Shown here: positions 10,956 to 48,175 of the stretch, one piece after another | Position numbering within the stretch: position 1 is the first letter of the stretch | How the letters are laid out: each line of letters starts with the position of its first letter | Assembly: GCA_027306505.1 (NCBI GenBank) | Contig: DAHUZP010000021.1 | Coordinates: 1 to 64,000, forward strand | Source: Thermoplasmata archaeon | Lineage (GTDB): Archaea > Thermoplasmatota > Thermoplasmata > Lutacidiplasmatales > UBA184 | Direction of reading: 5' to 3' | Length of the DNA: 64,000 bases | Made by a program: the position numbers and the translations under genes | The notes under the pieces: model-generated | What the model saw: only the letters and a program-made list of their open reading frames with translations | Told to the model about the DNA's origin: nothing | The model's database searches: none

Positions 10956-11801
10956 TCAAGAGGGGAAGAACGCGCCACAGTTCGAACAGGAGACCTCCCC
11001 CGACCGACGGAGGTTCCCGCACTGGGGGCATGTGCGGGGGCCCAGGGGCTGTGAGGTCATCGGAGGAGGGGCGGGAGCGGGTGGCACCACCGTAGGGGCG
11101 GAGGACGGCCCGCCGTAACCACCCATGAGCGAGGGGGGAGGAGCGCCGGGCGCGACGTAGACGGGGCCCGGTGAGGCGGGAGCGAAGAGCGGGGCGGGGC
11201 TCGCAGGGGGGGGCGGGGGGGGCCCCGCCAAGGGCGCGACGGGACGCGCCGGCGCGGCCGGGGGCGGAGAGGAGGGAGGGACGGAGGGCGGGGAAGAGGA
11301 GCCGGGAGCGCCCGGGGTCGAGCGTCCCTCCGTCGGCGACCCACCGCTCGCGGGGAGGGCAGGTTCGGGCTCGGGGGGAGGCATCCCGTAGAAGGAGCGG
11401 TGGACCCTCAGCAGGAGCAACCCCGGGACGATCCCGCCGAGGAGCGTCCCCAGGATCGAAGCGAGGAGGGTGGGCTGGGAGAGGTGGAAGGCCTCCGACT
11501 CCTCCTCGACCGCGAGGAGCAGTCCCCCCGTGACCGGGATCGCGATGCCCAGGTCCACCATCGCCCCGATGGTCCACACGGCGAGGAAGACCCAGTACTG
11601 CAACCCCCAGTTCGGGAAGGCGGAGGAGCCGCTCCAAAAGACGAGGAAAAGGAGGACCCCCCACGCGGCGACCCCGACAAGGGACACCCAGCGGGCCAGC
11701 TGGATCTGCCGGACCAGGCGGTCCTTGGAAGGGGCGTCGTCCAACCAACCGGCCCGGGCGGGCAGCCCGGTGGAAGGGAGCACCGGCAACGCGGCGGCCA
11801 T
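10956..11801 (-). CDS. membrane protein with Pro-rich linker and zinc-ribbon tail, locus A
   Basis: A 281-residue protein. An amphipathic start precedes about four membrane spans, the last containing LGGIVPGLLLLRVHRSFYG. A proline/glycine/alanine-rich linker of about 100 residues ends in a zinc ribbon, CPQC-x10-CSNC, very near the C-terminus. It is the counterpart of 47291-48175 in locus B and occupies the same position, last after pilin-like 5. ATG 11801 has GGAGGAG about 8 nt upstream and lies 20 nt after the pilin-like 5 stop. The ribbon and linker would be cytosolic, a possible docking arm for the motor, whose ATPase carries a ribbon of the same spacing. That docking idea is inference. 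Confidence 0.8.
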   Translation of the reverse strand: MAAALPVLPSTGLPARAGWLDDAPSKDRLVRQIQLARWVSLVGVAAWGVLLFLVFWSGSSAFPNWGLQYWVFLAVWTIGAMVDLGIAIPVTGGLLLAVEEESEAFHLSQPTLLASILGTLLGGIVPGLLLLRVHRSFYGMPPPEPEPALPASGGSPTEGRSTPGAPGSSSPPSVPPSSPPPAAPARPVAPLAGPPPPPPASPAPLFAPASPGPVYVAPGAPPPSLMGGYGGPSSAPTVVPPAPAPPPMTSQPLGPRTCPQCGNLRRSGEVSCSNCGAFFPS

Positions 11802-11820
11802 GGTGCTGCTCCTCCTCCCC

Positions 11821-12396
11821 TCAGCAAGCGTTCGGCGCCGGCGTGTACCCGACGGGATAGAATAGAGTGAGGTAGGTGGGCGACGCGTCGACCCACACCT
11901 CGACCACCGAGACGGTGAACGGGATGCCGGCGCCGACCTCGATGCAGGCGTTCGCCTGGTCCCAGCCGTGAAGCTGGGCCTCTGTGGTCTGCATCCCCTG
12001 GGAGGAGAGCTGCTGGAGCACCGAGGGCCCAAAGAGGTGGACGGGGTTGTTGAAGGAGGAGGTGCGGGAGACGGTCCCTCCCGGGACGTTCGCGGAGACC
12101 TCGAGGAAATCCGGGGTCACGAGGAGCTGATAGTCGTAACCGTCCGCGGCGCTCGGCAGCGTGTCACCGGAACCTCCGGGGGCGATCACCGTCCCGTAGG
12201 TGAACGTCTCCTGGGTCGCCGCGAGGAGCCCCTCGTCGCGGTCCACGTGGGTCGCGATGGTCGTCGCGACGTCGTCCAGGGCGGAGGTGACCGCCTGCGA
12301 GCGGTCGATCGCGGCGACAGCGCCCGCCCCGACCAGCGCGAGCGTCAGGGCGACCATGCTCGCCACCACCAGGGAGACGACCCAGTCGAAGATCAA
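11821..12396 (-). CDS. pilin-like protein 5, locus A
   Basis: A 191-residue protein, exactly the length of its locus B counterpart. It begins MIFDW and then runs into a hydrophobic helix with almost no leader, so it lacks a normal prepilin leader. It may be inserted without processing, as a minor pilin-like or TadE/F-like subunit. The exported part keeps the PVHLF block and the C-terminal SPTYLTLFYP block of copy B. The start is TTG in a TTGA overlap with the stop of pilin-like 4, indicating translational coupling. Confidence 0.75.
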   Translation of the reverse strand: MIFDWVVSLVVASMVALTLALVGAGAVAAIDRSQAVTSALDDVATTIATHVDRDEGLLAATQETFTYGTVIAPGGSGDTLPSAADGYDYQLLVTPDFLEVSANVPGGTVSRTSSFNNPVHLFGPSVLQQLSSQGMQTTEAQLHGWDQANACIEVGAGIPFTVSVVEVWVDASPTYLTLFYPVGYTPAPNAC

Positions 12397-13025
12397 GTCG
12401 GGGGCACCCCCACGAGCACGTAGTCGAGGGTGCCTCCCCCGCTCATGGGGTAGGCCTTCTTCTCGAAGAAGAGGGTCGTGGAGTGGGAGAGGACGAAGCC
12501 CGTGGACCCCGCGAGGCTGAGGTTCGTGAGCGGGACGTTCTGCGAACCCGTGTCCGCGAGCTCGCTGTAGGTCGCGGACCCGGCGGTCCCCACGGTCCAG
12601 GCGGCGGAGGGATCGAAGTACCCGCCCGTGCCCAGGAGGTCAGCGCCGATCGTGACCTGGGCTCCCCCCGGGTTCACGGTGAGCAGGAGCGTCGTGTTGA
12701 GGTCGCCCTCGAAGGCCTGGACCGCGGTCCCGACAATGTCGTTCACGGCCACTTCCATCTGGTCCTGGGCCTGGAAGGAACGGAACGCGAGGAAGCCTCC
12801 GATGACGATCGGGAGGACGATCGCCAGGACGAGGACGATGATGGTGAGCTCGAGGGGCATCTCGATGACGCCCCGCCGCCCCCTCCGCAGCGGGAGACGG
12901 AACCTTACACGGGGGCCGCTGCGATCCGCCCCTCCCTCCGCGCCCGCCTGCCCCTCCGGGACGAGGCGGTCGCGGGGGAGGGGGCGGGGGCTGGGACGGG
13001 GTCGGGGGAAACGCGCGCCGGTCAT
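12393..13025 (-). CDS. pilin-like protein 4, locus A
   Basis: A 210-residue protein. An unusually long basic, Pro/Arg-rich leader of about 50 residues ends in RRG, followed by VIEMPLELTIIVLVLAIVLP, the pilin hydrophobic helix. The exported domain shares NTTLLLTV and later segments with copy B. The ATG at 13025 overlaps the pilin-like 3 stop by 4 nt (ATGA), exactly as in locus B, which supports this start and the long leader. It is predicted to be processed by an archaeal prepilin peptidase and assembled by the locus motor. Confidence 0.75.
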   Translation of the reverse strand: MTGARFPRPRPSPRPLPRDRLVPEGQAGAEGGADRSGPRVRFRLPLRRGRRGVIEMPLELTIIVLVLAIVLPIVIGGFLAFRSFQAQDQMEVAVNDIVGTAVQAFEGDLNTTLLLTVNPGGAQVTIGADLLGTGGYFDPSAAWTVGTAGSATYSELADTGSQNVPLTNLSLAGSTGFVLSHSTTLFFEKKAYPMSGGGTLDYVLVGVPPT

Positions 13026-13570
13026 GGGAAGTACACCACGAAGGAGGTCGAGCTCGTCTGGGGGGTCGCCTCTCCGATCGTCGCCGGGGGCGTGTAGGAC
13101 CCCGACACCGACATCGACGCGTAGGGGGAGTGCAAGGCGGGGACCGGCTGGAAGGAGAGGAGGACCGAGCCGTTCGTCCCCGTGGTCCCGACGGCCCCGG
13201 TGCCGCTGCCGGTGAGGGTCACCGAGACGCCGGGCAGCCCCGACCCGTGCTCATCGAGGGCGGATACCCAGACCTCGACCTCGGCGGAGCTCGCGATGAT
13301 GAGCGTGGTGGTCTTGCCGTTCACGCTCCGCACGGCGATGCCCGAGAGATGGTGCGACTCGGTGTAGGAGAGCCAGAGGAACATGCTCGAGACGCCCACG
13401 GCGGCGATGAGCAAGGAGACGACCAGCTCGAGCCCCATCCCTTCCAGGGTCCCCCGGCTGGTCCGAGCGCCTCGGGCGAACGACCGTCGCCGGCCCCGGG
13501 CCCGGGCGGACGTGGACGCGGAGGAGGGAGGGGGAGAGGGAGCCCCGACCCCGCGAGGAGGGGCGGCCAT
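13022..13570 (-). CDS. pilin-like protein 3, locus A
   Basis: A 182-residue protein with a basic leader (RARGRRRSF ... SRG), then TLEGMGLELVVSLLIAAVG, the hydrophobic pilin helix. A short Ig-like exported domain follows (SGLPGVSVTLTGSGTG ... TNGSVLLSF). It matches 45531-46037 in position and in the LEGM motif. I use ATG 13570; AGGAG is too close to it to be ideal, and an in-frame ATG at 13636 or a downstream GTG cannot be excluded. The gap to the platform gene is about 88 nt and contains no clear promoter. Confidence 0.75.
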   Translation of the reverse strand: MAAPPRGVGAPSPPPSSASTSARARGRRRSFARGARTSRGTLEGMGLELVVSLLIAAVGVSSMFLWLSYTESHHLSGIAVRSVNGKTTTLIIASSAEVEVWVSALDEHGSGLPGVSVTLTGSGTGAVGTTGTNGSVLLSFQPVPALHSPYASMSVSGSYTPPATIGEATPQTSSTSFVVYFP

Positions 13571-13658
13571 GCTCCTATGAGCGGGTCGGGCGACCTTTAC
13601 CCTTCCGAGGCAGGTAACGAGACCTGGACCGACCAACGCCCTCCTCCTCCCGCCCCTC

Positions 13659-15812
13659 TCAGCCCGCCCCGCTCCCCAGGGTGAGGACGCCGAGGATCGA
13701 GCCCACCGCGAAGACGGCCATCGCGATCCAGAGGAACTGTCCCACCAGGGTCCAGAAGCGGAGTCGGTCGCCGCCGGTCTCGATCCCGATCGAGAAGTGT
13801 CCGATGATGAAGACCATCTCGAGCAGGTAGGTCCCCATCACCGCGAAGAAGAGCACCGGCGGCACCGCGAGGGCCCCGGAAGCGAGCACCCCGGAGAGGA
13901 GCAGGTAGAGCGCCCCGGTCATGCCCATGACCACGGGGGCGAAGAAGAACGCGGAGCCCTTCATCATCTGGACCGTGCCACGGAGCGAGGTGCGGATCGC
14001 GGCGTCGGTGTTCCTGAGGTCCTTGAGATGCTGGGCCATCGGGATCACGGTGTCGGTCACGGCCTGGGGTCCCTTGGAGGCCGCCTCCAGGAGCGCCCGC
14101 AGCGACACCCGCATCTGCCGCGACGGGTAGCGCGCGAGGAGACCGGGCCCCCTCGCCGAGCCGAAGAGGGCCTGCTCGGGGGTTCCCCCGCTCACGCGGA
14201 GCACGTAGAGGAGACGGTCGAAGAACTTCGCGGACTCGGTCCCGCGCATGCCGGCGGTGGTCCGCTCGACGGCCCGCTCGAACCTCAGCCCCTCGCCCAT
14301 CCGGCTCGCGAGCTGGAAGAGGGTGTCGGGGAACTCGTTCTCGAGCTTCTGCAGAGCGTTCCCGACCTTCGCGAGGGCCCGGGTGCGCAGGTAGACGCCC
14401 ACCGAGAGGCCGACACCGATGCCCATGAGCGCGAAGACCGTCCAGGTGAGCGTCCCGGCGGTCCCGAGATAGCCGAGGTAGGCCGGCACCGCGACCGCCC
14501 CCGTCGCGACGCCCGCCACCAGGGCGAGGAGGACCGCCTCGGAGAGCGGCGGACGCTTCACGCTGCCCGCGGGAGGACGCGGAGGCGTCACGGTCCCCGG
14601 ACGTTTGGAGAGGATCTGTAAGGAGTAGAGCAGCGCGACGAAGGGGAAGCCGACGTCCATCGCAAGGACGAAGCCGATGATCGTGACGAGCCCCGTGCCG
14701 GTCGTGTTCGTCCCCGCGAGGCCCCCTCCTCCGGGGGTCGCGCCAGGGGAAGGGCCGGTCCCGGCCCCCAGGTTCCCCAGGTTCGCGAGGTTGGAGAGGA
14801 AGACCATCGGCAGCATCGCGCCGATGACGAGGGGGAGCAGGACCCCCAGCGCGAAGAAGACCGTGGTGGGACCGGAGAGGCTCGAGGAGAACTCCTCGAT
14901 CTTGCGCCGCGTGCCGGAGAGGACGATGTCCTGGGCCTTCTCGAGGTCCCGGGTGAGCCCCTCCGTGCTCTTCTCGTGGGTCGAGAGCCTCAGGGCGTAC
15001 ATCGAGCGCATGAAGTCCTCGTTCCAGTTCCCCCACTCGTCCGAGAAGTGGAGGAAGGACTCCTCGAGCGAGGCGTACTTGCGCGAGAGCACGTCCCATT
15101 GGACCTTCTTGAGCGCCGCCCCCAGGTTGCCCTCCACGTTCTCGGAGGCGAACCGGACCGCGAGCGGCAGCGACCGGTTGAGCCGCAGCGACATGGCCAT
15201 GTAGTGCACGGCCTCGGGCGCCCGCCCCAGGGTCTGCACGCGCAGCCGGCGCGCGAGGAGCCCCGGATAGTTGTACACGAAGACGTAGAAGGAGAGCGGA
15301 AGCACCCCGGTGAGGAGCGCGATCACCAGGAGGAAGACCGAGATGACGCCCGCGCTCGCGATGACGAGGACGACCAGGAGCGCGACGAGGGCGATGAAGG
15401 TGAGGAGGAAGGTCGCGAGGGCGGCGTAGTGGACCTCGTCCGGGGTGACCTCGAGCCCGGCGAAGTAGATCTCCCGCTTGAACCCCGTGCGCCGGACCGC
15501 CTCCTCCAGCCGCTCGGCCCGGCTGCCCGCCCGGGCGAGGCGGCGTTCCAGCCGCTCGCGCGTGGCCTCGCCCTGGGACTCCCCCGCTTCCTCCCGGGCG
15601 AGCGAGGCCGCCTGCTTCTGCCGGTCCGAGCGGGCGCGCTCGAGCGCGGCGGAGAGACGGGCCGTGCGGGCGGCGGGGTCCACGTACCCCAGCAGGGCGC
15701 GTCCGAGCAGGTGGACGAAGGAGACGTACCACCCCCCGGCCGTCTCCTCCTGCACCGTCGCGGCCCCTGGAGGCGGGGTCGCCCCCGCGAGATCGTCCGC
15801 CGCGCTAGCCAT
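13659..15812 (-). CDS. pilus assembly platform protein, two T2SSF domains, locus A
   Basis: A 717-residue inner-membrane platform of the FlaJ/TadBC type. The N-terminal 120 residues are a charged, probably coiled cytosolic region. The first T2SSF-like unit follows (about 180-370: LGRAPEAVHYMAMSLRLN ... FASENVEGNLG), with flanking spans. A second unit is at about 480-630 (FPDTLFQLASRMGEGL ... AVERTTAGM), with more spans to the C-terminus. It should convert ATPase movement into pilin extraction. The ATG overlaps the end of the ATPase gene by 8 nt (ATGGCTAG), the same arrangement as in locus B. Carrying both units in one chain is as in FlaJ-like archaeal platforms rather than separate TadB and TadC. 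Confidence 0.9.
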   Translation of the reverse strand: MASAADDLAGATPPPGAATVQEETAGGWYVSFVHLLGRALLGYVDPAARTARLSAALERARSDRQKQAASLAREEAGESQGEATRERLERRLARAGSRAERLEEAVRRTGFKREIYFAGLEVTPDEVHYAALATFLLTFIALVALLVVLVIASAGVISVFLLVIALLTGVLPLSFYVFVYNYPGLLARRLRVQTLGRAPEAVHYMAMSLRLNRSLPLAVRFASENVEGNLGAALKKVQWDVLSRKYASLEESFLHFSDEWGNWNEDFMRSMYALRLSTHEKSTEGLTRDLEKAQDIVLSGTRRKIEEFSSSLSGPTTVFFALGVLLPLVIGAMLPMVFLSNLANLGNLGAGTGPSPGATPGGGGLAGTNTTGTGLVTIIGFVLAMDVGFPFVALLYSLQILSKRPGTVTPPRPPAGSVKRPPLSEAVLLALVAGVATGAVAVPAYLGYLGTAGTLTWTVFALMGIGVGLSVGVYLRTRALAKVGNALQKLENEFPDTLFQLASRMGEGLRFERAVERTTAGMRGTESAKFFDRLLYVLRVSGGTPEQALFGSARGPGLLARYPSRQMRVSLRALLEAASKGPQAVTDTVIPMAQHLKDLRNTDAAIRTSLRGTVQMMKGSAFFFAPVVMGMTGALYLLLSGVLASGALAVPPVLFFAVMGTYLLEMVFIIGHFSIGIETGGDRLRFWTLVGQFLWIAMAVFAVGSILGVLTLGSGAG

Positions 15813-18150
15813 GGCTCAGGGCCCCCTGGAACCAGGCGGCCCACTCCTGGAACATCGCGTCATAGTCGGCCTTGTGCCGGGTGATCTCCTCGGCGTGCCG
15901 CTCCAGGATCTCCCAGAAGGCCGCGTTGGAGGAGGCGACCCACGGAGCGGAGAGGAGCTCGGAGCGGCCCCGTCGGGCCTCCTCGACGAGCCTCTCCCGG
16001 ATCCGGGCCCGCATCGAGATGTTCGCGAGCGCCTCCGCGTAGGTGATCCCCCACGCCTGCGCGATCCTCCGGATCCGGTCGGAGGACTCGAGCAGCGAGG
16101 GGGTCTCCTTCAGGCGGTCCTCCGCGTCATCGTGGACCATGAGCTCGCGGAAGGTCCCCGGCTCCGTCCCCTCCTCCTTCGCGAGCTCGCTGATCTCGAG
16201 CACCCGGCGTCGCTGGGTGCGCACCGAGCCACCGGGGTTCGTGAGACCGCTCACCACCACGACGTCCGTCGCGTTGAACGACGTGGGGGAGATGCCGATG
16301 TCGTGGACGACGCGCTCGAAGATCGCTCGCGAGGAGTTCCCGTGGATCGTGCCCAGGACCGCGCTGCCGGCGGTCCCCGCCCGCATCGCTTCGTAGAGCG
16401 TCCGGGCCTCCTGGCCCCGGACCTCGCCCAGCACGATCGCGCTCTCCCCCAGCCGCAGGGAGACCTTGAGCGCGTCCTCCGCGCTCATCTCCGACTCTCC
16501 GCCCACCGAGGAGCGCACGAAGATGGTCTGGACCTTGTAGCCGTACTGGCGCATCTCGACGCTGGGGAGCTCCAGCGTGTCCTCGATGGTGAGGATCCTC
16601 TGGGTCTTGGGGAACTCCAGCATGAGCGCCCCCACGAGGGAGGTCTTCCCCGCCCCTCGGGCCCCGGCGACCAGGATGGTGGAGCGGCCGTCGATGAGGA
16701 AGGAGAGGAGCCCCGCGCCCATCGGGGAGAGCGCTCCCAGGTGGACCAGCTTCGGGAGGGTCCAGGGGTCCGTCGCGTGGCGGCGGATCGCCATCGCGAT
16801 CCCGTCCGGGGAGAGCGGGCGCCCGATCACCGTCGCGCGTACCCCGTACTCGCGCAGGTCCGTCTCCAGCACGGGCATCGACTCGGAGAAGGGCCGCCCG
16901 CTCTCCACCAGGAGACGCGCGAGGATGGCCTCCGCCTCCTCGTCGGTCACCGTGACGTTCGTGAGGCACTTGTCGCCGATGTCCTGGCGTCCGAAGCCTC
17001 CCACGCGCAGGTGGACCCGGTTCTCCGAGGCCGGGGCGTCGACGTAGAGGTCCTGGATGTGGGGGTCGGTGAGCAGCACCTCGAGCACGCCCAACCCGAC
17101 CACGTGACGGGTGAGGATCTCCGCGAGCTGCTCGAGCTTCGCGAGACGCGCGGAGGAGCTCCCCGGCAGGAGCGTGCCGGTCTCCCTCGCGACCCGCTGG
17201 AGGAACCGGACCGAGAGCTCCTGCACCACGTGCCGGGTCTGGGAGAGGCGGTGGAGCTGCAGGTGCTTCGGGTAGTACTCGACGAGCTCGTCCCGCGTCC
17301 GGTGGAGGAGCTCCACCTCGGCGTCGGTGAGCCGGTAGTCCGCGAGGTCCAGGTGGTAGAGCAGATCGGTCTGCTCGGGGACCCGGTAGAGGCGCACCTG
17401 GCTCCGCCCCAGCGGGTACTCCATCAAGAGCTCCGCACCCTCCGGGGGGACCAGGTTGACCCAGCAGCCGGAGAAGCCCGGCCGGGTGAGCGTACCCCGA
17501 CGAAGGCGGCGCATGACCAGGCGCGAGAAGCGCGGAGGCACGCGGTCGATGGTCGCCTCGATCCCACGGAGCACCCCCGGCCGCTCCTCCAGCGGCAGCG
17601 CTCGGCCCGGCGGCAGCAGGGCGAGGGGGCCGCGCCCCAGCCCGGCAGGCCCTCCGAGGCCGCTCCCCACCACCGGGGCGAGGGCCGGGGGCGGCCGTGC
17701 GGTGATGGGAGCGCTCATGCCCGGACCTGGTGGGCCCGGCGAGGCCTCCGGTCCCGACGGCAAAGGCCCCGTCGCTGCCGTTCCCGCAGGCCCGGCAGAC
17801 GTTGAACCACCGCGGGCCCACGGGGGTGGGGTCGCCGCGGGACGGGGCGGTGTCGGAGGGGAGGACGGAGGTGGGGGCGCCGCCCCGGCGTACCTTGGAG
17901 GGGGTGGAGAAGGGGCGACGCTCGACATCGCTGGCGCCCTGGACGGCGGGGGCGGAGGCGGGGGCGGCGTCGCCGGTCGGGAGGGCGGGGGCGGCAGGGC
18001 GGAGGGCGGGAGCGGGGTCACGCTGGAAGGGAGGGGTGGGGCCTGGCCCGAGGTCGGCGGCATGCGGAGCTGTGTGATCTCGAGCCCGCAGCGAGAGCAG
18101 CGCGACGCCTCCTCCGGGAGGAAGGAGCCGCAACGAGGACACGAAGCCAT
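15805..18150 (-). CDS. secretion/pilus ATPase with N-terminal zinc ribbon, locus A
   Basis: A 781-residue TadA/FlaI/GspE-family hexameric ATPase powering assembly. The core (about 260-781) has Walker A GARGAGKTS (Lys about 502), an Asp box (IEDTLELP), Walker B VLGEVRG (Glu about 576) and a His box TIHGNS (about 603). All are intact. In front are a zinc ribbon CPRC-x10-CSRC at residues 4-21 and a long proline-rich linker, so it is much longer than a typical family member of around 500 residues. ATG 18150 has GGAGG 7 nt upstream. A TTG at 18189 in TTGA overlap with the previous gene is an alternative giving 794 residues. The paralogue is 41235-43403. Confidence 0.92.
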   Translation of the reverse strand: MASCPRCGSFLPEEASRCSRCGLEITQLRMPPTSGQAPPLPSSVTPLPPSALPPPPSRPATPPPPPPPPSRAPAMSSVAPSPPPPRYAGAAPPPPSSPPTPPRPAATPPPWARGGSTSAGPAGTAATGPLPSGPEASPGPPGPGMSAPITARPPPALAPVVGSGLGGPAGLGRGPLALLPPGRALPLEERPGVLRGIEATIDRVPPRFSRLVMRRLRRGTLTRPGFSGCWVNLVPPEGAELLMEYPLGRSQVRLYRVPEQTDLLYHLDLADYRLTDAEVELLHRTRDELVEYYPKHLQLHRLSQTRHVVQELSVRFLQRVARETGTLLPGSSSARLAKLEQLAEILTRHVVGLGVLEVLLTDPHIQDLYVDAPASENRVHLRVGGFGRQDIGDKCLTNVTVTDEEAEAILARLLVESGRPFSESMPVLETDLREYGVRATVIGRPLSPDGIAMAIRRHATDPWTLPKLVHLGALSPMGAGLLSFLIDGRSTILVAGARGAGKTSLVGALMLEFPKTQRILTIEDTLELPSVEMRQYGYKVQTIFVRSSVGGESEMSAEDALKVSLRLGESAIVLGEVRGQEARTLYEAMRAGTAGSAVLGTIHGNSSRAIFERVVHDIGISPTSFNATDVVVVSGLTNPGGSVRTQRRRVLEISELAKEEGTEPGTFRELMVHDDAEDRLKETPSLLESSDRIRRIAQAWGITYAEALANISMRARIRERLVEEARRGRSELLSAPWVASSNAAFWEILERHAEEITRHKADYDAMFQEWAAWFQGALSHG

Positions 18151-18185: not shown

Positions 18186-19340
18186 TCAACCGCCCGACGG
18201 ACCGGGGGCCTGCAGGCCGCTCTCGCCCGGCGCTGCGGGTCGTCCTCGGGACCGGCCGCTTCCCGCGCTACGGACCCGGGAGACGAGCTCACCCAGCTCC
18301 TGGCTCACGAGCTCCAGATCGCTCACAGTGACGCCCAGGCAGCGGACGCACTCGGGCTCCGGCCGACCCGTCCCCAGGACCCGCACCTTCTCCCGTAGGT
18401 CGGAGAGGAAGTCGTCCCATCCGCGCCGGAGGCTCTCCTCCAGGTCGGGGAAGAACGTGCGGGGGTTGAAGGCGCATGTGGCGCAGTCGACCCTCTTCAA
18501 CCGACGGGCGAGGTTCCCCTTGTTCTGCTCGATGTAGTCGATCTTCTCGTCCGGGGTGAGCTCCCGTTCCTTGGAGGAGGGACCCGTTCGCCCCTGGGCG
18601 GGAGCGGGGGGGCTCCCTCCGGGGCTGGGCGGGGCCGTTTCGGTGGGCCGCAGCGGCGGCCCGCCAGGGGAGGGCAAGGTGGGTGGGTGGCCCCCTCCCC
18701 CCTGACCGCTGCCGAGCGACCCCGTGCCGACGACGCTCGCCGCTCCCGAGGGGCCTGAAAGGCCCGCCGACGCGCGGTCCGACGTCGAGGTCGCCCCGGG
18801 CGAGGGGCCCACCTGGACGGGGGGAGGGGCGGGCGGGGAGTGCCGACGGCCCGGGCCGAGCACCCGCCGCAGGTCCTCCTCGGCCTCCTCCTCCGCGTCG
18901 ACCTCGTCCACGGGGGCGCGGGCCGCCTCGATCTCCGACTGGCGGTCGAGGTCGTCCAGGAGCTCCTCCAGGTCGGCCCCGGGCACGACGATGCCGTCGA
19001 GGACCGGGAGCGGTGGGCGCGTGGAGAGCTGTTGGAGCAGCTTGTGCAGTTCGAGGATCCGGCGCAGCAGGAGCACCGTCTCGCCGGAGTACTGGCGCAT
19101 GGTCCGGCCCGCGAGGGTGAGCAGGTCCACGTGGTATTCCTCGCCGAGCGCCTGCAGCACGGCGGCGAGGCACCTCGGGTCCGCGATGGCGTCCGGGCCT
19201 TCGCAGGCGGCGCATCGGAGGATGAGGTTCGTCGCGCCCCCTGAGGAGCGGACCTCGTACTCGAACGGCGGGACCTCGACCGCTTCCGGCTCGCCCTGGT
19301 CACGCGACGGGCCCGGGGCGGGTCGGGACGGAGGGCTCAC
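18186..19340 (-). CDS. seven-cysteine pilus-locus protein, locus A
   Basis: A 384-residue cytosolic protein of no family I recognise. Conserved with copy B are the N-terminal motif FEYEV...LRCAAC (Cys 43, 46, 57; C-x2-C-x10-C), the MRQYSGETVLLLRRILEL helix, a DCATC motif (286, 289) followed by FNPRTFFPDLEESL, and ECVRCLGVTVSDLE (331, 334). The middle, about 150-265, is acidic then Pro/Gly-rich and is not conserved. Seven conserved cysteines suggest bound zinc or an Fe-S cluster. It lies directly upstream of the ATPase gene in both loci, so it is probably an ATPase partner or regulator. The start is GTG with GGAGG about 12 nt upstream. Confidence 0.75.
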   Translation of the reverse strand: MSPPSRPAPGPSRDQGEPEAVEVPPFEYEVRSSGGATNLILRCAACEGPDAIADPRCLAAVLQALGEEYHVDLLTLAGRTMRQYSGETVLLLRRILELHKLLQQLSTRPPLPVLDGIVVPGADLEELLDDLDRQSEIEAARAPVDEVDAEEEAEEDLRRVLGPGRRHSPPAPPPVQVGPSPGATSTSDRASAGLSGPSGAASVVGTGSLGSGQGGGGHPPTLPSPGGPPLRPTETAPPSPGGSPPAPAQGRTGPSSKERELTPDEKIDYIEQNKGNLARRLKRVDCATCAFNPRTFFPDLEESLRRGWDDFLSDLREKVRVLGTGRPEPECVRCLGVTVSDLELVSQELGELVSRVRSAGSGRSRGRPAAPGESGLQAPGPSGG

Positions 19341-37240: not shown

Positions 37241-37735
37241 ATGCGGAACCACCGCCTGGGGAGACGGGGGGTCGCGGGGTTCTTTGAGGAGATCCCGGCG
37301 GCCTCCGTGGCGATCATCTCGCTCCTCCTGTTCTTCAGTGGGATGCTGGTCGCGATCACGAACTACTCCGACCGCCAGCAGTCGAGCCAGTTCGCCCAGG
37401 AGGCCCAGACCTTCCTCGAAGGCCTGCTCGGCTACGCGAACCTGACCTATCTGGGCCAGTACGGTGTGTTCGACGTCTACTCGATGACGGCGCTCACGCT
37501 CAACGACCTCACCTACGATTTCCACCCCTCCTTCCAGTACAGCATCACCATCACCGACACCTCGCTCTACCCCGTCCACTACGACAAGACGCTCGCCACC
37601 GGCAACCTCCCCTCCGGCCCGAGCTCCCTCCAGAACGGCTACGTCAGCGACTCCACCTCGGTCGACCTGTGGGTCTTCAACTTCCCTGACACCGAGTACC
37701 ACGCGGCCACGCTCACGGTGGTGATCTGGTCGTGA
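37241..37735 (+). CDS. pilin-like protein 1, first gene of locus B
   Basis: A 164-residue protein. The leader MRNHRLGRRG is followed by VAGFFEEIPAASVAIISLLL, the pilin helix with the same FxEE motif as copy A. The exterior shares FLEGLLGYANLTYLGQYGVF and FHPSFQY with copy A. ATG 37241 is preferred over a GTG at 37226 because the TATA spacing fits a leaderless mRNA and the leader length matches copy A. Confidence 0.82.
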   Translation: MRNHRLGRRGVAGFFEEIPAASVAIISLLLFFSGMLVAITNYSDRQQSSQFAQEAQTFLEGLLGYANLTYLGQYGVFDVYSMTALTLNDLTYDFHPSFQYSITITDTSLYPVHYDKTLATGNLPSGPSSLQNGYVSDSTSVDLWVFNFPDTEYHAATLTVVIWS

Positions 37736-40385: not shown

Positions 40386-41234
40386 ATGATACCGCCCCGA
40401 GTCGCCGCACAGGTCGCGAACCCCCTGACCAACCTGCCCGAGTACGAGTACGAGCTCAGGACCGAAGGTCGGGCGCTCAACCTTGTCGTCCGGTGCCCGG
40501 CCTGCCAGGGCCCCGAGGGGATCCTGAACCCCCAGTGCCTCGCGGTGGTGCTCCGGATCCTCTCCACCGAGTCCTTCGCCGACCTCGTGACCTTCACCGG
40601 CATCACCCAGCGGCAGTACGGCGGCCAGGCGGTGGAACTGCTGAAGCGCCTGGTCAGCTTCTCGAAGCTCCTGGACCAGCTCTCCGGCCGGCAGCCGCTC
40701 CCCTACAGCGGCGGGGTCGTCTTCCCCGACGGACAGGTGGACGAGGTCATCGCGGACCTGGAGAAGGTCGCCTCGACCCCCGGGGCGCTCCCGGGGCCGC
40801 TCCTCACCGTCGAAGGGAACCCGCAGAACCTGACGCCGCCCGTCGCGGCCGAGCTCGCTCGGAACGCGCGCGCTCAGCGGGCGAACATCCAGCGCCACCT
40901 GCGCCGGCTCGACTGCGCGCACTGCGCCTACAGCCCACGCAACCTCTTCCCGAACCTCAAGAACCTGCTCCTGACCGACCTTCGGGCCTTCGCGCTCGAC
41001 CTGCGGCAGAGGGCCCAGGTGCTGGCCCAGGGTCCCCCGGACGAGGGCTGCAGCCGCTGCCTCGGCTTCACCTTGTCCGACCTCGAGTACCTCGCGGACC
41101 AGCTCGTGGAGCTCGATGGCTTCGTCCGAAGCCGCGGCGCGGGAGAGACCGGCGGTCCCGGGGCGAACCTGGGACGCGGCCCGGCGAACCCCCCGGCCCA
41201 GCCCGCCCACGCCGCCGCGGGGGGGAGCCACTAG
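40386..41234 (+). CDS. seven-cysteine pilus-locus protein, locus B
   Basis: A 282-residue cytosolic protein, the short form of 18186-19340 without the long acidic/Pro-rich middle. The cysteines are at 37, 40, 51 (RCPAC-x10-C), 177, 180 (DCAHC followed by AYSPRNLFPNL) and 222, 225 (GCSRCLGFTLSDLE). QRQYGGQAVELLKRLV matches the helix in copy A. Its TAG stop is immediately followed by the ATPase ATG, so both products should be made in step. I infer a metal-binding partner of the ATPase and do not recognise a named family. Confidence 0.78.
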   Translation: MIPPRVAAQVANPLTNLPEYEYELRTEGRALNLVVRCPACQGPEGILNPQCLAVVLRILSTESFADLVTFTGITQRQYGGQAVELLKRLVSFSKLLDQLSGRQPLPYSGGVVFPDGQVDEVIADLEKVASTPGALPGPLLTVEGNPQNLTPPVAAELARNARAQRANIQRHLRRLDCAHCAYSPRNLFPNLKNLLLTDLRAFALDLRQRAQVLAQGPPDEGCSRCLGFTLSDLEYLADQLVELDGFVRSRGAGETGGPGANLGRGPANPPAQPAHAAAGGSH

Positions 41235-43403
41235 ATGGTCGCTCAGAGCGCGACCACCTCCATCGGCACGTGCACCAACTGCGGCGCTCCGCTCTCCGGC
41301 AAGACCCGGTTCTGCGGCAGCTGCGGCACCCCCATCCCGGTGGGCCGCCCCTCCTCGGGCCGCCCGGGCGCCTCCGCCTCGCCCGCCCCCGCCGCCGCCC
41401 GCAAGAGCATCGACGAGATCGCCCCCATGCCTCCCCCCGCGGTCGCTCCTCCCCCCTCCCCCGCGCCGTCGCTCCCGCGCAGCGCCCCGCCCCCCCGGGC
41501 GGCCCCGCACCCGCGTGACACGATCGCACCGACCCCGCCCCCTCCCGCCGCGGCCTACCGCCCGGCGACCGCGCCCTCGCTCTCGCAACGCTACCGGCGC
41601 CCGATGAGCCCCGAGCTCGGCCCGAGCGCGATCGGCAAGGTGCTCCACTCCATGGACCGCCTGCCCGTGGACGACATGGTCCGCGGCGCGGGGCGTATCC
41701 TAGGACGCGGGATGCTGACGCGGCCTGGGTTCTCCGGCTGCTGGGTCACCCCGGCGGTCCCCGAGAACGGCGAGCTCCTCTTCCAGTACCCGCTCGGCCG
41801 AAGCCGCGTGCTCCTCTACCGGATCCCGAACGAGGTCGACATCCTCTACCACCTGGACCTCGCGGACTACCGGGTGCCGCCCCAGTACGTGCAGCTCATC
41901 GAGTGGACGCGCGAGGAATTGGTCCACTGGTACCCGAAGCAGTTCAAGCTCACGTTCCTGGGACAGACGCGCCAGTACGTCCAGGACCTCTCCGAGCGCC
42001 TGATGCACCGGATCGCGAAGGAGCGCGGGATCTCCCTGGGTCCCACCACCGCCGCCTCCTCGGCGCGCCTCAAGGAGCTCTCCGAGATCCTCGCCCGCCA
42101 TGTGGCGGGGTTGGGCGTCATCGAGCTCCTGCTCGAGGACCCGCACATCCAGGATGTCTACGTGGACGCCCCGGCCTCCGAGAACCGCGTGCACCTGCGG
42201 GTCGCGGGCTTTCCCGATGAGCGCGTGGGCGACAAGGCCCTCACCAACATCATCGTGACCGACGAGGAGACGGAGGCCATCCTCTCCCGGTTCCGGATCG
42301 AGAGCGGGCGGCCGTTCTCGGAAGCGATGCCCGTCCTGGAGACGGACCTCAAGGAGTACAACACCCGTGCGTCCGTGATCGGCCGGCCGCTCTCCCCCGA
42401 CGGGATCGCGATCGCGCTACGGCGGCACGCGACGGACCCGTGGACGCTCCTCAAGTTCCTCTATTTCCGCTCGCTCTCCCCCTTCTCGGCGGGACTGCTC
42501 TCCTTCCTGGTGGACGGACGCAGTTCGATCCTTGTCTCGGGGGCGCGCAGCGCGGGGAAGACCTCGCTCGTCGCGGCGCTCATGCTCGAGTTCCCCAAGA
42601 CCCAACGCATCCTTACCATCGAGGACACGCTCGAGCTGCCGAGCCTCGAGATGCGTCAGCTGGGCTACAAGGTCCAGACCATCTTCGTCCGGAGCGCCCT
42701 GGGCGGGCAGGCCGGGGAGATGACCACCGACGACGCCCTCAAGGTCTCGCTGCGTCTGGGCGAGAGCGCGATCGTGCTCGGGGAGGTGCGTGGCCAGGAG
42801 GCCCGTACCCTCTATGAGGCGATGCGCGCAGGGACGGCCGGCAGCGCGGTGCTGGGGACCATCCACGGCAACAGCGCCCACGCGGTGTACGAGCGGGTCG
42901 TCCACGACCTCGGGATCTCCCCCACCTCCTTCAACGCGACGGACATCGTGGTCATCGCGGGGCTCACGAGCCCTGGCGGCTCGGTGCGCACCCAGCACCG
43001 GCGGCTGCTCCAGCTGAGCGAGCTCGACAAGAACGCCCCGGACCCGGGGACCTTCGAGGACCTGCTCAACTACGACGAGGCGAACGACGCGCTCCTCGAG
43101 TCCCCGCGCGTCGCGCAGGGTTCGCTCCGGATCTCCACCATCGCCGAAGCGTGGGGCATGACCTACCCTGAGGCGATCGAGAACATCCGGGTGCGCGGCG
43201 CCTACAAGGAGCACATCGTGAAGTACGCGGAAGCGACCGGGCGCTTGGACCTATTGACCGCCCCGTGGGTCGGCGCGACGAACGCCGCCTTCTGGGAGAT
43301 CATGGAGCGCTACAAGGACCAGGTCCACGACCACACCCTGTCCTACGACACGGTCCTTCAGGAGTGGAAGGACTGGTTCGCGAAGACCGTGCGTTATGGC
43401 TGA
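41235..43403 (+). CDS. secretion/pilus ATPase with N-terminal zinc ribbon, locus B
   Basis: A 722-residue TadA/FlaI-type ATPase. The zinc ribbon CTNC-x10-CGSC is at 13-30, a Pro-rich linker reaches about 125, and the core follows with Walker A ARSAGKTS (Lys about 442), IEDTLELP, Walker B VLGEVRG (Glu about 517) and His box TIHGNS (His about 544). Long stretches are identical to copy A, e.g. DVYVDAPASENRVHLRV against DLYVDAPASENRVHLRV. The start abuts the previous stop. The last 8 nt overlap the platform gene. Confidence 0.92.
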   Translation: MVAQSATTSIGTCTNCGAPLSGKTRFCGSCGTPIPVGRPSSGRPGASASPAPAAARKSIDEIAPMPPPAVAPPPSPAPSLPRSAPPPRAAPHPRDTIAPTPPPPAAAYRPATAPSLSQRYRRPMSPELGPSAIGKVLHSMDRLPVDDMVRGAGRILGRGMLTRPGFSGCWVTPAVPENGELLFQYPLGRSRVLLYRIPNEVDILYHLDLADYRVPPQYVQLIEWTREELVHWYPKQFKLTFLGQTRQYVQDLSERLMHRIAKERGISLGPTTAASSARLKELSEILARHVAGLGVIELLLEDPHIQDVYVDAPASENRVHLRVAGFPDERVGDKALTNIIVTDEETEAILSRFRIESGRPFSEAMPVLETDLKEYNTRASVIGRPLSPDGIAIALRRHATDPWTLLKFLYFRSLSPFSAGLLSFLVDGRSSILVSGARSAGKTSLVAALMLEFPKTQRILTIEDTLELPSLEMRQLGYKVQTIFVRSALGGQAGEMTTDDALKVSLRLGESAIVLGEVRGQEARTLYEAMRAGTAGSAVLGTIHGNSAHAVYERVVHDLGISPTSFNATDIVVIAGLTSPGGSVRTQHRRLLQLSELDKNAPDPGTFEDLLNYDEANDALLESPRVAQGSLRISTIAEAWGMTYPEAIENIRVRGAYKEHIVKYAEATGRLDLLTAPWVGATNAAFWEIMERYKDQVHDHTLSYDTVLQEWKDWFAKTVRYG

Positions 43404-45510
43404 GCTCCATCCCTCCTCCCCCGACGCCCTCAGCACCGGGTGGTACTCCTCGCTCTGCCGCAGCGTGGGAGGCTCCTTCCAGGGCCTGTTCCCGCCGGCG
43501 AAGCGAGCCTCGCGCCTGCAGGCGCGCTACGAGCAGGTCCGCCTGCAGCTCCGGGAGGCCGAAGGGGCGGTGACCCGGGCGGAAGCGACCGAGTCCCGAC
43601 GCTCCGTCCGACTGCGGCAGGCCGAGCGGAAGGTCCACGGGCTCCAGCGCAAGCTGGACGCCATCGACCGGCTGCTCAAGAGGGTCGAGCTGCGGCGGGA
43701 GCTCTACTTCGCCGGGCTCGACGTGACCCCGGACGAGATCCACACCACCGCGCTCGCGGTCTTCCTCGTGAGCTTCCTCATGCTGGCCGCCCTCCTGGGG
43801 ACGGAGTTCGGGCTGTCGAACCCCTTCGGGATGGTGGACCCGATCTCCACCACCATCACGGTGATCGCCCTCGCGATCCTCCCCTTGTTGCTCTTCCTCT
43901 ACATCTACAACTACCCACAGTGGACCGCCGGACGCCTGCGCGTCCAGACCCTGGGCCGGGCGCCCGAGGCCGTCCACTACATGGTCATGTCCATGCGGCT
44001 CAACCCGTCCCTCGACCGGGCGGTCCGCTTCGCGGCGGAGAACGTGGAGGGCCCGCTCTCCTCGAGCCTGAGGAAGGTGCTCTGGGACGTCCACACGCGC
44101 AACCACCCGTCGATCGAGCAGTCGTTCATGGCCTTCGCCGAGGAGTGGGGGCACTGGAACGAGGACTTCAAGCGCTCCCTCTACTCCATCCGGATGGCGA
44201 CGCTCGAGCGCACCGACGAGGGGCTCGCGAAGAACCTGGAGAAGGCCCTGGACTCGGTCCTCCAGGGGACGAAGAAGAAGATCGAGAACTTCGCGGCGGG
44301 GCTGCAGAGCCCGACCACGGTCCTCTTCGGTCTCGGGGTCCTGCTGCCCATGATCATCGGGGCGATGCTGCCCATGATCTTCCTCGCCGGCCTCGGCAAC
44401 GCGATCTCGAACCCGGGCGGGCTCTCGAGCGGGACCGCCGGCAACCCGCTGCAGACCACGACGCTCTCGACCAACGACCAGTTGATCGCGAACATCGGCT
44501 TCGCCCTCTTGCTCGACATCGCCTTCCCCATCGGTGCCCTGGCCTACGCGTCGAGCATCCTCGCGAAGCGCCCCGGGACGGTCGTCCCCCCTGAGGCTCC
44601 CGAGGTCGAGCCCATCTTCTCCCCCACGGTGAACCTCCTGCTCGCCTTCGTCATCGCATCCGGGATCGGCGCTCTCGCCTACCCCGCCGTGCTCGGGTAC
44701 CTCGGAGCCTTGGTCCAGCCGGCCTGGGAGCTGCTGCCGGTCCTCGGGTTCGCGGTGGGGGTCTCGGTCTACTTCGTCCTCGACGTCTGGCCGCGCAACC
44801 ACGCCCGCAAGGCGATGGAGCGGCTCGAGGCGGAGTTCCCGGACGCGCTCTTCCAGGTGGGCAACCGCATGGCGGAGGGGCTGCCCCTGGAGCGGGCCCT
44901 GGACCGGACCGCGGACGCCATGAGCGGGACGGAGACCTCGACGTTCTTCCGACGCATCCTCCACGCGATGCGCGTCACCGGCCAGACCCCCGAGCAGGTC
45001 ATCTTCGGCGGCCCCCACGGACAGGGCCTCCTGCGGATCTACCCCTCGAGGATGGTCGCGGTGTCCATGCGCGCGCTCCTGGAGGCCGTGACCAAGGGCC
45101 CTGAGGCGGTCGGGCACACCATCGTCCCGATGGCCCAGTACCTCAAGGAGCTGCGCGACGTCGACCAGTCGCTGCGGACCGCCCTCAAGCCCACCGTCTC
45201 GATGATGAACGGCACGGCGATCGTCTTCTCCCCGCTCGTGCTCGGCATGACGGGAGCGCTCTACGTGCTGCTCTCGACCGTCCTCGCGGGCGGGAGCCTC
45301 ATCGTCTCCATCCCGGTGTTCATGCTGGTCATCGGCATCTACCTGGTCGAGATGGTGACCGTGATCTCCTTCTTCACCGTGGGCGTCGATCGCGGCGGGG
45401 ACTCCACCTCCCTCCGCGTCCAGCTGGGCATGTTCCTGGGGCTCTCGGTCGCGATCTTCGTCGCGGCCGCGATGCTGGGGCTCTACGTGGTCACGAGCAG
45501 CGTGGTGTAG
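43396..45510 (+). CDS. pilus assembly platform protein, two T2SSF domains, locus B
   Basis: A 704-residue FlaJ/TadBC-like membrane platform. The N-terminal charged region to about 110 (many Arg/Glu/Gln) is probably coiled. T2SSF unit 1 is at about 180-370 (LGRAPEAVHYMVMSMRLNPS, RFAAENVEGPL). T2SSF unit 2 is at about 475-620 (FPDALFQVGNRMAEGLPLER). Several spans lie between and after. The ATG sits in the ATGGCTGA overlap with the ATPase, as in copy A. It would anchor the ATPase and feed pilin-like subunits into the fibre. Confidence 0.9.
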   Translation: MAELHPSSPDALSTGWYSSLCRSVGGSFQGLFPPAKRASRLQARYEQVRLQLREAEGAVTRAEATESRRSVRLRQAERKVHGLQRKLDAIDRLLKRVELRRELYFAGLDVTPDEIHTTALAVFLVSFLMLAALLGTEFGLSNPFGMVDPISTTITVIALAILPLLLFLYIYNYPQWTAGRLRVQTLGRAPEAVHYMVMSMRLNPSLDRAVRFAAENVEGPLSSSLRKVLWDVHTRNHPSIEQSFMAFAEEWGHWNEDFKRSLYSIRMATLERTDEGLAKNLEKALDSVLQGTKKKIENFAAGLQSPTTVLFGLGVLLPMIIGAMLPMIFLAGLGNAISNPGGLSSGTAGNPLQTTTLSTNDQLIANIGFALLLDIAFPIGALAYASSILAKRPGTVVPPEAPEVEPIFSPTVNLLLAFVIASGIGALAYPAVLGYLGALVQPAWELLPVLGFAVGVSVYFVLDVWPRNHARKAMERLEAEFPDALFQVGNRMAEGLPLERALDRTADAMSGTETSTFFRRILHAMRVTGQTPEQVIFGGPHGQGLLRIYPSRMVAVSMRALLEAVTKGPEAVGHTIVPMAQYLKELRDVDQSLRTALKPTVSMMNGTAIVFSPLVLGMTGALYVLLSTVLAGGSLIVSIPVFMLVIGIYLVEMVTVISFFTVGVDRGGDSTSLRVQLGMFLGLSVAIFVAAAMLGLYVVTSSVV

Positions 45511-45530: not shown

Positions 45531-46037
45531 ATGTCAGCAGCGTGGGGTCGGGGCGAGACCGGTCGGCGCCGCCCTCGGGCCCGACGGCTCCACCGGCGCC
45601 TCGGCTCGCGCCGTGCGGTGCTGGAGGGGATGCCCCTCTCGATGCTCATCTCGATCCTCATCATCGCCATCGGGACCATCGTCATCGTCTCGCTCTACGC
45701 CTACGCCCAGGTGACGAACCTCTCCTCGGTCACGGTCTACACGACGGTAGGGCAGGCGTCCGGCTTCCTGCCGGCGACGCCGACGCAGCTGCGGGTCACC
45801 GCCTGGACGCAGAACGGCGGGACCATGGGCGGGGTCACGATCGTCCTCAACGGGAGCGGGATCAGCGAGCGGGGGCAGACCTCGGGGAACGGCTCCGCCT
45901 ACTTCTGGATCGAACCGGTGCTCCACAACCATGCGACGAGCGGCGTGCTGAACATCTTCGCGACCTACACGCCCACCGTCTCGCTGGTCGCGCCCGCGCA
46001 CCAGAGCTATCAGGTCACGTTGTCGGTGCTCTCATGA
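45531..46037 (+). CDS. pilin-like protein 3, locus B
   Basis: A 168-residue protein. The Arg-rich leader (RRRPRARRLHRRLGSRRA) is followed by VLEGMPLSMLISILIIAIG, the pilin helix with the LEGMP motif shared with 10195-10806 and 13022-13570. The exterior is a small Ig-like domain (MGGVTIVLNGSGI). GGAGG lies about 10 nt before the ATG, giving independent initiation 20 nt after the platform gene. It is a likely structural subunit. Confidence 0.8.
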   Translation: MSAAWGRGETGRRRPRARRLHRRLGSRRAVLEGMPLSMLISILIIAIGTIVIVSLYAYAQVTNLSSVTVYTTVGQASGFLPATPTQLRVTAWTQNGGTMGGVTIVLNGSGISERGQTSGNGSAYFWIEPVLHNHATSGVLNIFATYTPTVSLVAPAHQSYQVTLSVLS

Positions 46038-46675
46038 ACGACCCCGAGCTACGATCGCTTGAGCTCCAGCGGGCCCGGCTCGGCCGCCGGCGGCCCCGAG
46101 CGCTCTCCGGTCGCCGAGGGGTGACGGACGTCCCGCTCGAGCTGCTCATCATCATCATCATCCTCGCGATCGTGATCCCGATCATCGTTGCGGCGCTCAT
46201 CGAGTACACGACGGCCCAGACCGCGCTCTCGGTCCAGCAGCAGGCCTCCAACGTCCGGGACGTCGCGGTCCAGGTCTATGACGACGGCATCAACACGACC
46301 CTGTTGGTGACGCTGGACCTGCCGGGCTCGGGCCACGTAGGGGCCGGCGCCTCGATCTGGCTGCGCGGCGGCGTGGTCAACTGGTACGGCGCGACCAAGA
46401 TCTACTACACGGTGGGCACGGCCTCCCCCTCGAACCTCCTCGTGGACAACGGGGCCTCCAACGTCCTGCTCGGCAACATCACCTGCACCTACCCGGTCAT
46501 CAGCTGGGCGCAGAGCTGCTCCACCCGGGTCTTCTCGATCGCCTCCGGCGTCCAGACCGAGATCGCGCTCACGAAGATCTCCCCGGGGGGGTTCTTCATG
46601 TGGGGCGGACAGGTGCTCCCGGACCCCACCAACCTCACCGCGGGGTTCGTGGAGGTCCACGAGGTGTACCCATGA
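46034..46675 (+). CDS. pilin-like protein 4, locus B
   Basis: A 213-residue protein. A leader of about 29 residues rich in Arg/Leu ends in RRG, then VTDVPLELLIIIIILAIVIP, the hydrophobic helix. The exterior contains INTTLLVTLDLP, like copy A. The ATG overlaps the pilin-like 3 stop by 4 nt. Two cysteines (ITCTYP; QSCSTRVF) could form a disulfide. Probably a minor pilin. Confidence 0.78.
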   Translation: MNDPELRSLELQRARLGRRRPRALSGRRGVTDVPLELLIIIIILAIVIPIIVAALIEYTTAQTALSVQQQASNVRDVAVQVYDDGINTTLLVTLDLPGSGHVGAGASIWLRGGVVNWYGATKIYYTVGTASPSNLLVDNGASNVLLGNITCTYPVISWAQSCSTRVFSIASGVQTEIALTKISPGGFFMWGGQVLPDPTNLTAGFVEVHEVYP

Positions 46676-47247
46676 TGCTGGACTGGGCCGTGAGCATCCT
46701 CCTCGTGAGCCTGATCGTCTTCGGTCTCACGGTGGTCTCCCTCGACTTCTTCCAGAACGTCGACCACGACTACGTGCTGAGGGACGCGCTCTCCTCCTCG
46801 GCGCACACCGTCGCGGACCAGGTGGACCGGGTGGAGGCGCTCCCGGCGACCATCAACCAGGGGTTCTTCTACAACGAATCGGTCACCACCACAGGGAGCA
46901 CCGAGTACGGCGTGCCCATGCCAGGGACCCTCGCGGGGAGCCGCTACTCCGTCGACTTCACCCACGACTTCGTGGTCACGGTCTCGAACGGCTCGGGCTC
47001 GGTGGTGGGGAGCTACGTCGACCTCACGAAGCCGGTTCACCTCTTCCCCGAGAACATGACCCACGACATGGAGCGGTTCGGCACCTCGAGCTACCACCTG
47101 CACGTGGAGGACCAGCTCCACGACTGCTGGGCCTTCCCGTCCGGGACGAACTTCAACGCGTCCGTCTCCCTGGTGTACGTGGACGGTTACCCCACCTACC
47201 TCACCTTCGTGTACGCGATGAACGGCATGAGCTACCCGTGCAGTTGA
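46672..47247 (+). CDS. pilin-like protein 5, locus B
   Basis: A 191-residue protein, the same length as copy A. It begins MMLDWAVSILLVSLIVFGL with no basic leader, so the hydrophobic helix starts almost at residue 1. The conserved blocks are KPVHLFPENM and PTYLTFVYAMN. The ATGA overlap with pilin-like 4 mirrors the TTGA overlap in copy A. It probably acts in the membrane without leader cleavage, or as a non-canonical minor pilin. Confidence 0.75.
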   Translation: MMLDWAVSILLVSLIVFGLTVVSLDFFQNVDHDYVLRDALSSSAHTVADQVDRVEALPATINQGFFYNESVTTTGSTEYGVPMPGTLAGSRYSVDFTHDFVVTVSNGSGSVVGSYVDLTKPVHLFPENMTHDMERFGTSSYHLHVEDQLHDCWAFPSGTNFNASVSLVYVDGYPTYLTFVYAMNGMSYPCS

Positions 47248-47290
47248 CCCCCAAGAACGACCGAAGAAGCAAAGGAGTGGAGAGAGCAGC

Positions 47291-48175
47291 ATGATCCGAG
47301 GAGGAAGAGGCGGAGGGTCCCCGAGCGACACGATGGAGCCAGTGGCGGGTCCACTGCCTGTGGAGGCCGAAGAGGCGAAGGGGCAGGTCCGGATCGGCAT
47401 CGTCGTCGCGCTCGTGCTGGGGATCGTCTTCCTGGCGCTCATGGGCTTCATGGCCTACACCGCCGCGACCACCCCGGGCTTCCCGTACCTCTTCCCCGCC
47501 CTCGCCATGGCCTACTTCGGCGCGGCGGGCGTCTCCGACCTCGCGGTGGGCCTCACCGCCGAGCGCGGCACCGTGAAGCTCTGGCGGGAAGGGAAGTACG
47601 AGGAGAGCGACAAGTTCCTGCGCCACTGGCGCATGGTGATCGGCTTCGTCCCGGGCGGCATCCTCCCGGGCTTCTTCCTCCACCGCGCGCTCGTCCGCGT
47701 CCACCCCCTGGTGCAGCTCGAGAAGGGCGGCGTGCCGACCCCCGGAGCCCAGCGGGGAGCCCCCGTCGCGGGCCCTGCGGAGTACCCGGGCCAGGGTCAC
47801 CCAGCCTCCGGCTACCCGGACCCTTCCCCCTACGGGAGCGCTCCGGCCGCCCCGGCCGCGCCCTCCCAGTACGCTCCCTACACGCCCACCCCGGCGACCT
47901 CCGACCGCGTCGCTCCGGACCCGTTCGGTGGCGCCCACTCGCCGGCCCCGGCGACGCCGGGCGGGACCGCGGTCCCCGGCGGCCCGGCGGCGGTCTGGTC
48001 GCGCCCAGGGGCCTACGCGGCGGGGTCGTCCCCCGGCAGCGCCCCGCCCGCGATGGGCAGCTACGGTGGGACACCCGTCGGCCCCGCTCCGATGCGGAGC
48101 TGCCCCACCTGCCACGCGACGCTCGAGGGTGACTCGCGCTTCTGCAAGCACTGCGGCGCCGCGGTCCCAGCCTAG
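47291..48175 (+). CDS. membrane protein with Pro-rich linker and zinc-ribbon tail, locus B
   Basis: A 294-residue protein with about three membrane spans in the first 140 residues (GIVVALVLGIVFLALMGF; a second at about 56-76; GGILPGFFLHRALVRV). A Pro/Ala/Gly/Tyr-rich linker follows, then a C-terminal zinc ribbon CPTC-x10-CKHC. It is last in locus B, as its relative 10956-11801 follows pilin-like 5 in locus A. The ATG is preceded by AAGGAGTGG. The tail should be cytosolic; interaction with the motor is inferred from repeated co-occurrence. Confidence 0.8.
   Translation: MIRGGRGGGSPSDTMEPVAGPLPVEAEEAKGQVRIGIVVALVLGIVFLALMGFMAYTAATTPGFPYLFPALAMAYFGAAGVSDLAVGLTAERGTVKLWREGKYEESDKFLRHWRMVIGFVPGGILPGFFLHRALVRVHPLVQLEKGGVPTPGAQRGAPVAGPAEYPGQGHPASGYPDPSPYGSAPAAPAAPSQYAPYTPTPATSDRVAPDPFGGAHSPAPATPGGTAVPGGPAAVWSRPGAYAAGSSPGSAPPAMGSYGGTPVGPAPMRSCPTCHATLEGDSRFCKHCGAAVPA

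Follow-up and report, generated by a model that had tools for sequence, protein, structure and literature searches.

The stretch of DNA analyzed here (the window, 64,000 nucleotides [nt]) is contig C60 of a draft Thermoplasmata metagenome-assembled genome (MAG) of 2.96 Mb, 88% complete and in 87 contigs. With a probability that we put at about 80%, it holds a type IV pilus assembly locus in two complete paralogous versions, tandem-duplicated and both retained, each likely making its own filament. Open reading frame analysis and BLASTP place ten collinear gene pairs in locus A (10956–22486, minus strand) and locus B (37241–48175, plus strand). Genes 1 to 10 are numbered by their order within each locus, 11 and 12 are further genes of the duplicated unit, and A or B gives the locus copy. 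An earlier note on this DNA had reported that both loci share ten genes and their order; all twenty open reading frames are indeed present at about the positions it gave, and every pair is homologous.

Identity between the two copies (BLASTP) is 64% over 594 amino acids for gene 5, 47% over 701 amino acids for gene 6, and 47 and 45%, in two blocks, for gene 4. The other pairs have 44% (gene 1), 37% (gene 8), 32% (gene 9), 31% (gene 10, E = 5e-19), 29% (gene 7), and 27% (genes 2 and 3). For the weaker pairs, profiles of A-type and B-type orthologs were compared with each other, and the E values for genes 1, 2, 3, 7, 8, 9, and 10 (5e-18 to 1e-58) are so low that the resemblance is not due to chance. 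Pfam identifies T2SSE in gene 5, T2SSF in gene 6 (two domains detected in B6, one in A6), and zinc ribbons in genes 5 and 10. Gene 3 had been described as a propeller/FnIII protein. The FnIII part stands, with an fn3 match exceeding the cut-off in B3 only, and the propeller comes down to a weak WD40 match in B3 (E = 0.01). The gene overlaps, described as conserved, are so in part: genes 5 and 6 overlap by 8 nt in both copies of the window and in the genus, but the sister genus varies (8 nt in one B copy, 11 nt in the A copies, none in the remaining B copies). A 4-nt overlap joins genes 7 and 8 in nearly all loci and genes 8 and 9 in most. The near identity of the cores in places holds at the protein level, where residues 500–547 of B5 are 48 consecutive identical positions, but not at the DNA level. 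Recent gene conversion was considered as its source and rejected, as no DNA tract exceeds 75% identity and the longest exact run is 30 nt.

The comparison of sequences and gene orders shows one tandem duplication of the whole locus, about twelve genes long, before the split between the genus and its sister genus. The genus's three further genomes and the sister genus likewise have A-type and B-type loci with this gene order. In two genomes of the sister genus (G006 and G007), a single contig carries A and B in tandem, separated by genes 11, 12A, 13, and 14. In a careful tree of the ATPase and platform (genes 5 and 6), A (support 100/100) and B (97/96) form together a clade (100/100), followed by f3 and f2, of the same taxonomic order, and then by other Thermoplasmata. 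A 69-row tree of the ATPase likewise puts A and B as sister clades. A and B are nested inside the single-copy lineage of Thermoplasmata. Among the single-gene trees, those of genes 1, 2, 3, 7, 9, 10, 11, and 12 separate A from B with SH-aLRT supports of 94–100; for genes 6 and 8, support for the B side is 100 and 99, respectively. The subunits of A and B are therefore not in unrelated clades, which the earlier note had named as the outcome that would undo its proposal. One genome of the genus has a third, diverged copy of the pilus locus (L036, contig C48 of G010), which is cut by a contig end and falls on the A side of the tree.

The earlier note had hesitated between an ancient duplication of the whole locus and transfer of a second copy, and the gene trees, the linkage, and the gene order in two genera agree on the former. 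Gain of the second copy from another lineage is conceivable in view of the distribution of gene 4 among 106 genomes of the same order. The gene is present in each of the genus's four genomes and in five genomes from the sister genus, but essentially absent from the family's other genera, bar two near-threshold matches, and it occurs once each in three genomes of two other families. Horizontal transfer is nevertheless very unlikely: A and B are fully supported sisters within the family, next to families of the same order, and synonymous distances (dS) between species are alike in A and B. Because A and B are sister clades with a linked order in both genera, the duplication predates the split of the genera, and transfer becomes unnecessary.

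The duplicated unit exceeds ten genes: pairwise and profile homology, together with orthology, shows that genes 11 and 12 are part of it and likewise have one paralog in each copy. Gene 11 encodes a protein of about 1500 amino acids with a pilin-like N-terminal transmembrane segment (TM) and the motif RVPYAF, and gene 12 a secreted protein of 1056–1156 amino acids with a C-terminal TM. In relatives from the genus, gene 11 lies on the upstream side of gene 1, in divergent orientation, and gene 12 on the downstream side of gene 10, in convergent orientation. Judged by the same orthology, 11B and 12A appear displaced in the window. Their positions (5480–10168 and within 22592–30270, respectively) are unlike those in all relatives examined, reflecting either rearrangement or assembly error. 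This placement and the fragmentation of the draft MAG might suggest that the pair of loci is itself an assembly or binning artefact. Such an origin is extremely improbable, as both types are found in independent genomes of two genera and, in G006 and G007, on one contig.

Both copies are kept by purifying selection, with ratios of nonsynonymous to synonymous rates (dN/dS) of 0.09–0.72 across all 24 genes. A specialization of the outer surface after duplication, as had been proposed, is not borne out. One might suspect that neofunctionalization specially accelerated the exposed domains, since identity between A and B is lowest in the exposed proteins (27–37%) and highest in the ATPase. However, orthologs show the same gradient, and the distance between A and B divided by the distance between sister-genus orthologs is 1.17–1.31 for genes 4–6 and 1.01–1.47 for the others among genes 1–10. 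Core and exposed genes are thus alike (1.0–1.5), which makes such an acceleration unlikely; exposed proteins do change more rapidly, yet to the same degree as they do between orthologs, with no clear excess after the duplication. The ratio for gene 11 is 1.8, from B-type data only.

The combination of an intact ATPase, a platform, pilin-like proteins, and a peptidase makes an archaeal type IV pilus the most likely identity of the machine; its platform is a fused double-T2SSF protein. The ATPase (gene 5) has intact Walker A, Asp, Walker B, and His boxes, and its nearest solved relatives are CpaF (E = 1e-28), then an archaeal type II secretion ATPase and FlaI. The T2SSF platform adjoins it, gene 6 following gene 5 in nearly all sampled loci. 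Genes 1, 2, 7, 8, and 9 encode a short basic leader and a hydrophobic N-terminal helix (gene 9 starts almost at the TM). The model of the B1 family is pilin-shaped, with a helix at 10–63 (54 residues) and a beta head (pLDDT 83). A PibD/FlaK-like prepilin peptidase with an Arc_PepC_II match and the D and GGAD motifs is encoded on contig C78; PF01478 gave no prepilin peptidase match in the genome.

Several observations weigh against two complete, retained pilus loci. One genome of the sister genus (G004, 98% complete) has the B type only, A being dispensable there or missed. Foldseek found no significant fold match in the PDB for the gene-1 model, nor was one found for that of gene 4. Finally, Pfam gave no pilin family above cut-off for genes 1, 2, 8, and 9. 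Gene-1 orthologs have sub-threshold Pfam matches only (the best DUF7285, E = 0.039), and nothing was found in the literature on DUF7283–7287 and DUF7311. The loci might alternatively build a short pseudopilus for protein secretion or surface display, as in type II secretion, for example of the giant proteins 11 and 12. The several differing pilin-like proteins, among which no major pilin is obviously abundant, would fit this, as would the linkage and co-duplication of very large secreted proteins and the conservation of a secreted LysM/amidase protein as a neighbor. Yet gene 11 has a pilin-like N-terminal TM and is not an obvious cargo, and in the literature those archaeal relatives whose function is known are pili for adhesion or motility, so that we regard a pseudopilus as rather unlikely.

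If these loci encode pili, the PibD/FlaK-like peptidase would trim the pilin-like proteins 1, 2, 7, 8, and 9, and perhaps the giant protein 11, and the ATPase would power the double-T2SSF platform, which would push the pilins into a helical fiber. The gene-4 protein would rest on the N-terminus of the ATPase as a metal-binding adaptor, and the zinc-tailed membrane protein (gene 10) would be an accessory on the inner face. The fn3 protein (gene 3) and the products of genes 11 and 12 could provide exposed adhesive parts. Each copy would then most likely make a separate surface filament, the two pili presumably differing in the target bound or in the time when they are made.

Gene 4 belongs to no known family. 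In line with the name "seven-Cys protein" in the earlier note, its product has exactly seven invariant cysteines, a count based on 14 relatives; an eighth (position 20 of B4) is usual in the wider Thermoplasmata set. Five sampled loci (L060, L063, L066, L068, and L080) have gene 4 fused to the N-terminal end of the ATPase. This speaks for binding between the two proteins, and the Cys-rich protein is probably an ATPase-bound adaptor. The core of genes 4, 5, and 6, often with genes 1 and 2 divergent alongside, recurs across Thermoplasmata, and the ATPase of this lineage also occurs in further classes of the phylum. Outside Thermoplasmatota, the closest ATPase/platform pair found is on two Haloterrigena plasmids (41% over the core). 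There, gene 4 matches the ATPase N-terminus weakly (hhalign E = 7e-4), and gene 7 matches a DUF7382 neighbor in its N-terminus only (E = 1e-3). A strong match of gene 4 to the haloarchaeal ATPase (E = 4e-46) was discarded, as the profile was contaminated by two fused seeds and clean profiles give a weak match. This is a widespread archaeal pilus lineage that is hardly described. It spans Thermoplasmatota with its seven/eight-Cys protein, ATPase, and double platform, and gives the Cys protein a testable role as partner of the ATPase. Furthermore, a whole multigene envelope machine was duplicated cleanly and its linkage kept in two genera, so that co-evolution of motor and surface can be traced gene by gene.

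Lineage-specific duplications of archaeal type IV pilus loci have already been described (Makarova 2016, PMC4858521), which limits the surprise of the present one. No secretion ATPase was seen in Methanomassiliicoccus by the same census, yet three MAGs assigned to this genus carry the present lineage. With euryarchaeal type IV pili, including the PilB4-type locus of Haloferax, the loci share a VirB11-family ATPase, a TadC-like platform, and several pilins (PMC4858521). The PilB4 ATPase bears extra N- and C-terminal domains (PMC4858521); here, in contrast, the gene-4 protein is encoded separately, a zinc ribbon is part of the ATPase, and the loci additionally hold genes 3, 10, 11, and 12. The CdiP pilus of Cuniculiplasma divulgatum is likewise a Thermoplasmatota pilus with an ATPase and a T2SSF platform but, unlike loci A and B, has two ATPases and a split platform (PMC12448462). 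Contigs C23 and C53 of the MAG analyzed here (G000) carry two more pilus-type loci (L050 and L051), each with two ATPase and two T2SSF regions. They are 76–87% identical to each other in DNA, lie on a distant ATPase branch, and have a layout that recalls CdiP; they may be true paralogs or come from a contaminating relative.

The resemblance to Tad and Epd systems (Denise 2019, PMC6668835) lies in the ATPase, whose closest kin in solved and curated families is CpaF/TadA, and in several small pilin-like proteins. Both of these systems divide the platform between two single-domain proteins and include a TadZ-like protein (PMC6668835). The platform is here undivided, a single protein of 704–717 amino acids with two T2SSF domains and not the TadB and TadC of Tad. 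The best NCBIfam match of the ATPase is TIGR03819 (TadA; E = 1e-36, 126 bits for a cut-off of 373), and all NCBIfam matches are below cut-off. No Pfam match to TadZ, Flp pilin, or secretin was found among the ten proteins of either locus. The label "Tad-like" thus fits only loosely, through the affinity of the ATPase; by the features tested the system is not Tad, and it is better named an archaeal type IV pilus. No well-described named system with all ten parts was found.

Table. Genes of the two pilus loci and of the larger duplicated unit (E values for A/B refer to profile–profile comparisons)
Gene	Coordinates	Strand	Predicted product and evidence
A1	22001..22486	-	Pilin-like; N-terminus RRAIAG/FLEEIP, then TM
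A2	21411..22010	-	Pilin-like; motif RRGQLALFDAVLFLP; alternative start 22004; A/B E = 4e-24
A3	19468..21414	-	Secreted fn3 protein, C-terminal TM, putative adhesin; fn3 E = 0.003; A/B E = 2e-48; TM at 19, 574
A4	18186..19340	-	Cytoplasmic seven-Cys protein, putative ATPase adaptor
A5	15805..18150	-	Assembly ATPase, N-terminal zinc ribbon; T2SSE E = 7e-20
A6	13659..15812	-	Double-T2SSF platform; T2SSF E = 3e-6
A7	13022..13570	-	Pilin-like, Ig-like head; Big_1 E = 0.007; A/B E = 3e-27
A8	12393..13025	-	Pilin-like; A/B E = 2e-30
A9	11821..12396	-	Pilin-like, N-terminal TM directly at start; A/B E = 4e-32
A10	10956..11801	-	Membrane protein, zinc-ribbon tail (C259, C262, C273, C276); A/B E = 5e-18
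B1	37241..37735	+	Pilin-like; family model
B2	37732..38424	+	Pilin-like; sequence motif and A/B profiles
B3	38448..40334	+	Secreted fn3 (weak WD40) protein, C-terminal TM; fn3 E = 2e-5
B4	40386..41234	+	Seven-Cys protein
B5	41235..43403	+	Assembly ATPase, zinc ribbon; T2SSE E = 2e-21; best solved relative CpaF
B6	43396..45510	+	Double-T2SSF platform
B7	45531..46037	+	Pilin-like; sequence motif and A/B profiles
B8	46034..46675	+	Pilin-like; sequence motif and A/B profiles; 4-nt overlap with B7
B9	46672..47247	+	Pilin-like; sequence motif and A/B profiles; 4-nt overlap with B8
B10	47291..48175	+	Membrane protein, zinc-ribbon tail; Zn_Ribbon_1 E = 3e-5
11A	25780..30270	+	Giant N-terminally anchored secreted protein, A unit; 58–59% to its counterparts in the genus, encoded upstream of gene 1 in A-type loci; tree support 100
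11B	5480..10168	-	Giant protein, B unit by orthology, beside A10 here; 58–66% to its counterparts in the genus, encoded upstream of gene 1 in B-type loci
12A	22592..25762	+	Surface protein, C-terminal TM, upstream of A1 here; orthologs downstream of gene 10 in A-type loci
12B	48218..51688	-	Surface protein, B unit, convergent with B10; 42–49% to orthologs downstream of B10 in relatives

Between the two loci, a gene at 33724–36855 (minus strand) encodes a secreted protein with two LysM domains, an Amidase_6/NlpC domain (peptidoglycan-hydrolase-like), and a C-terminal TM. LysM/Amidase_6-like genes adjoin pilus loci in both genera, and archaeal peptidoglycan hydrolases killing bacteria have been reported (PMC12352652). 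A functional link of this protein to the pili is a conjecture. That the linked pili and the LysM/Amidase_6 protein make up a single contact-dependent apparatus of an acidophilic archaeon for gripping and attacking bacteria, the two pili being specialized for different targets, is quite improbable. A secreted PKD-domain protein with a C-terminal TM (30362–33559, minus strand) is conserved beside the LysM protein in both genera. Farther away, the window encodes a PQQ/BamB-like beta-propeller protein (1108–3093, minus strand).

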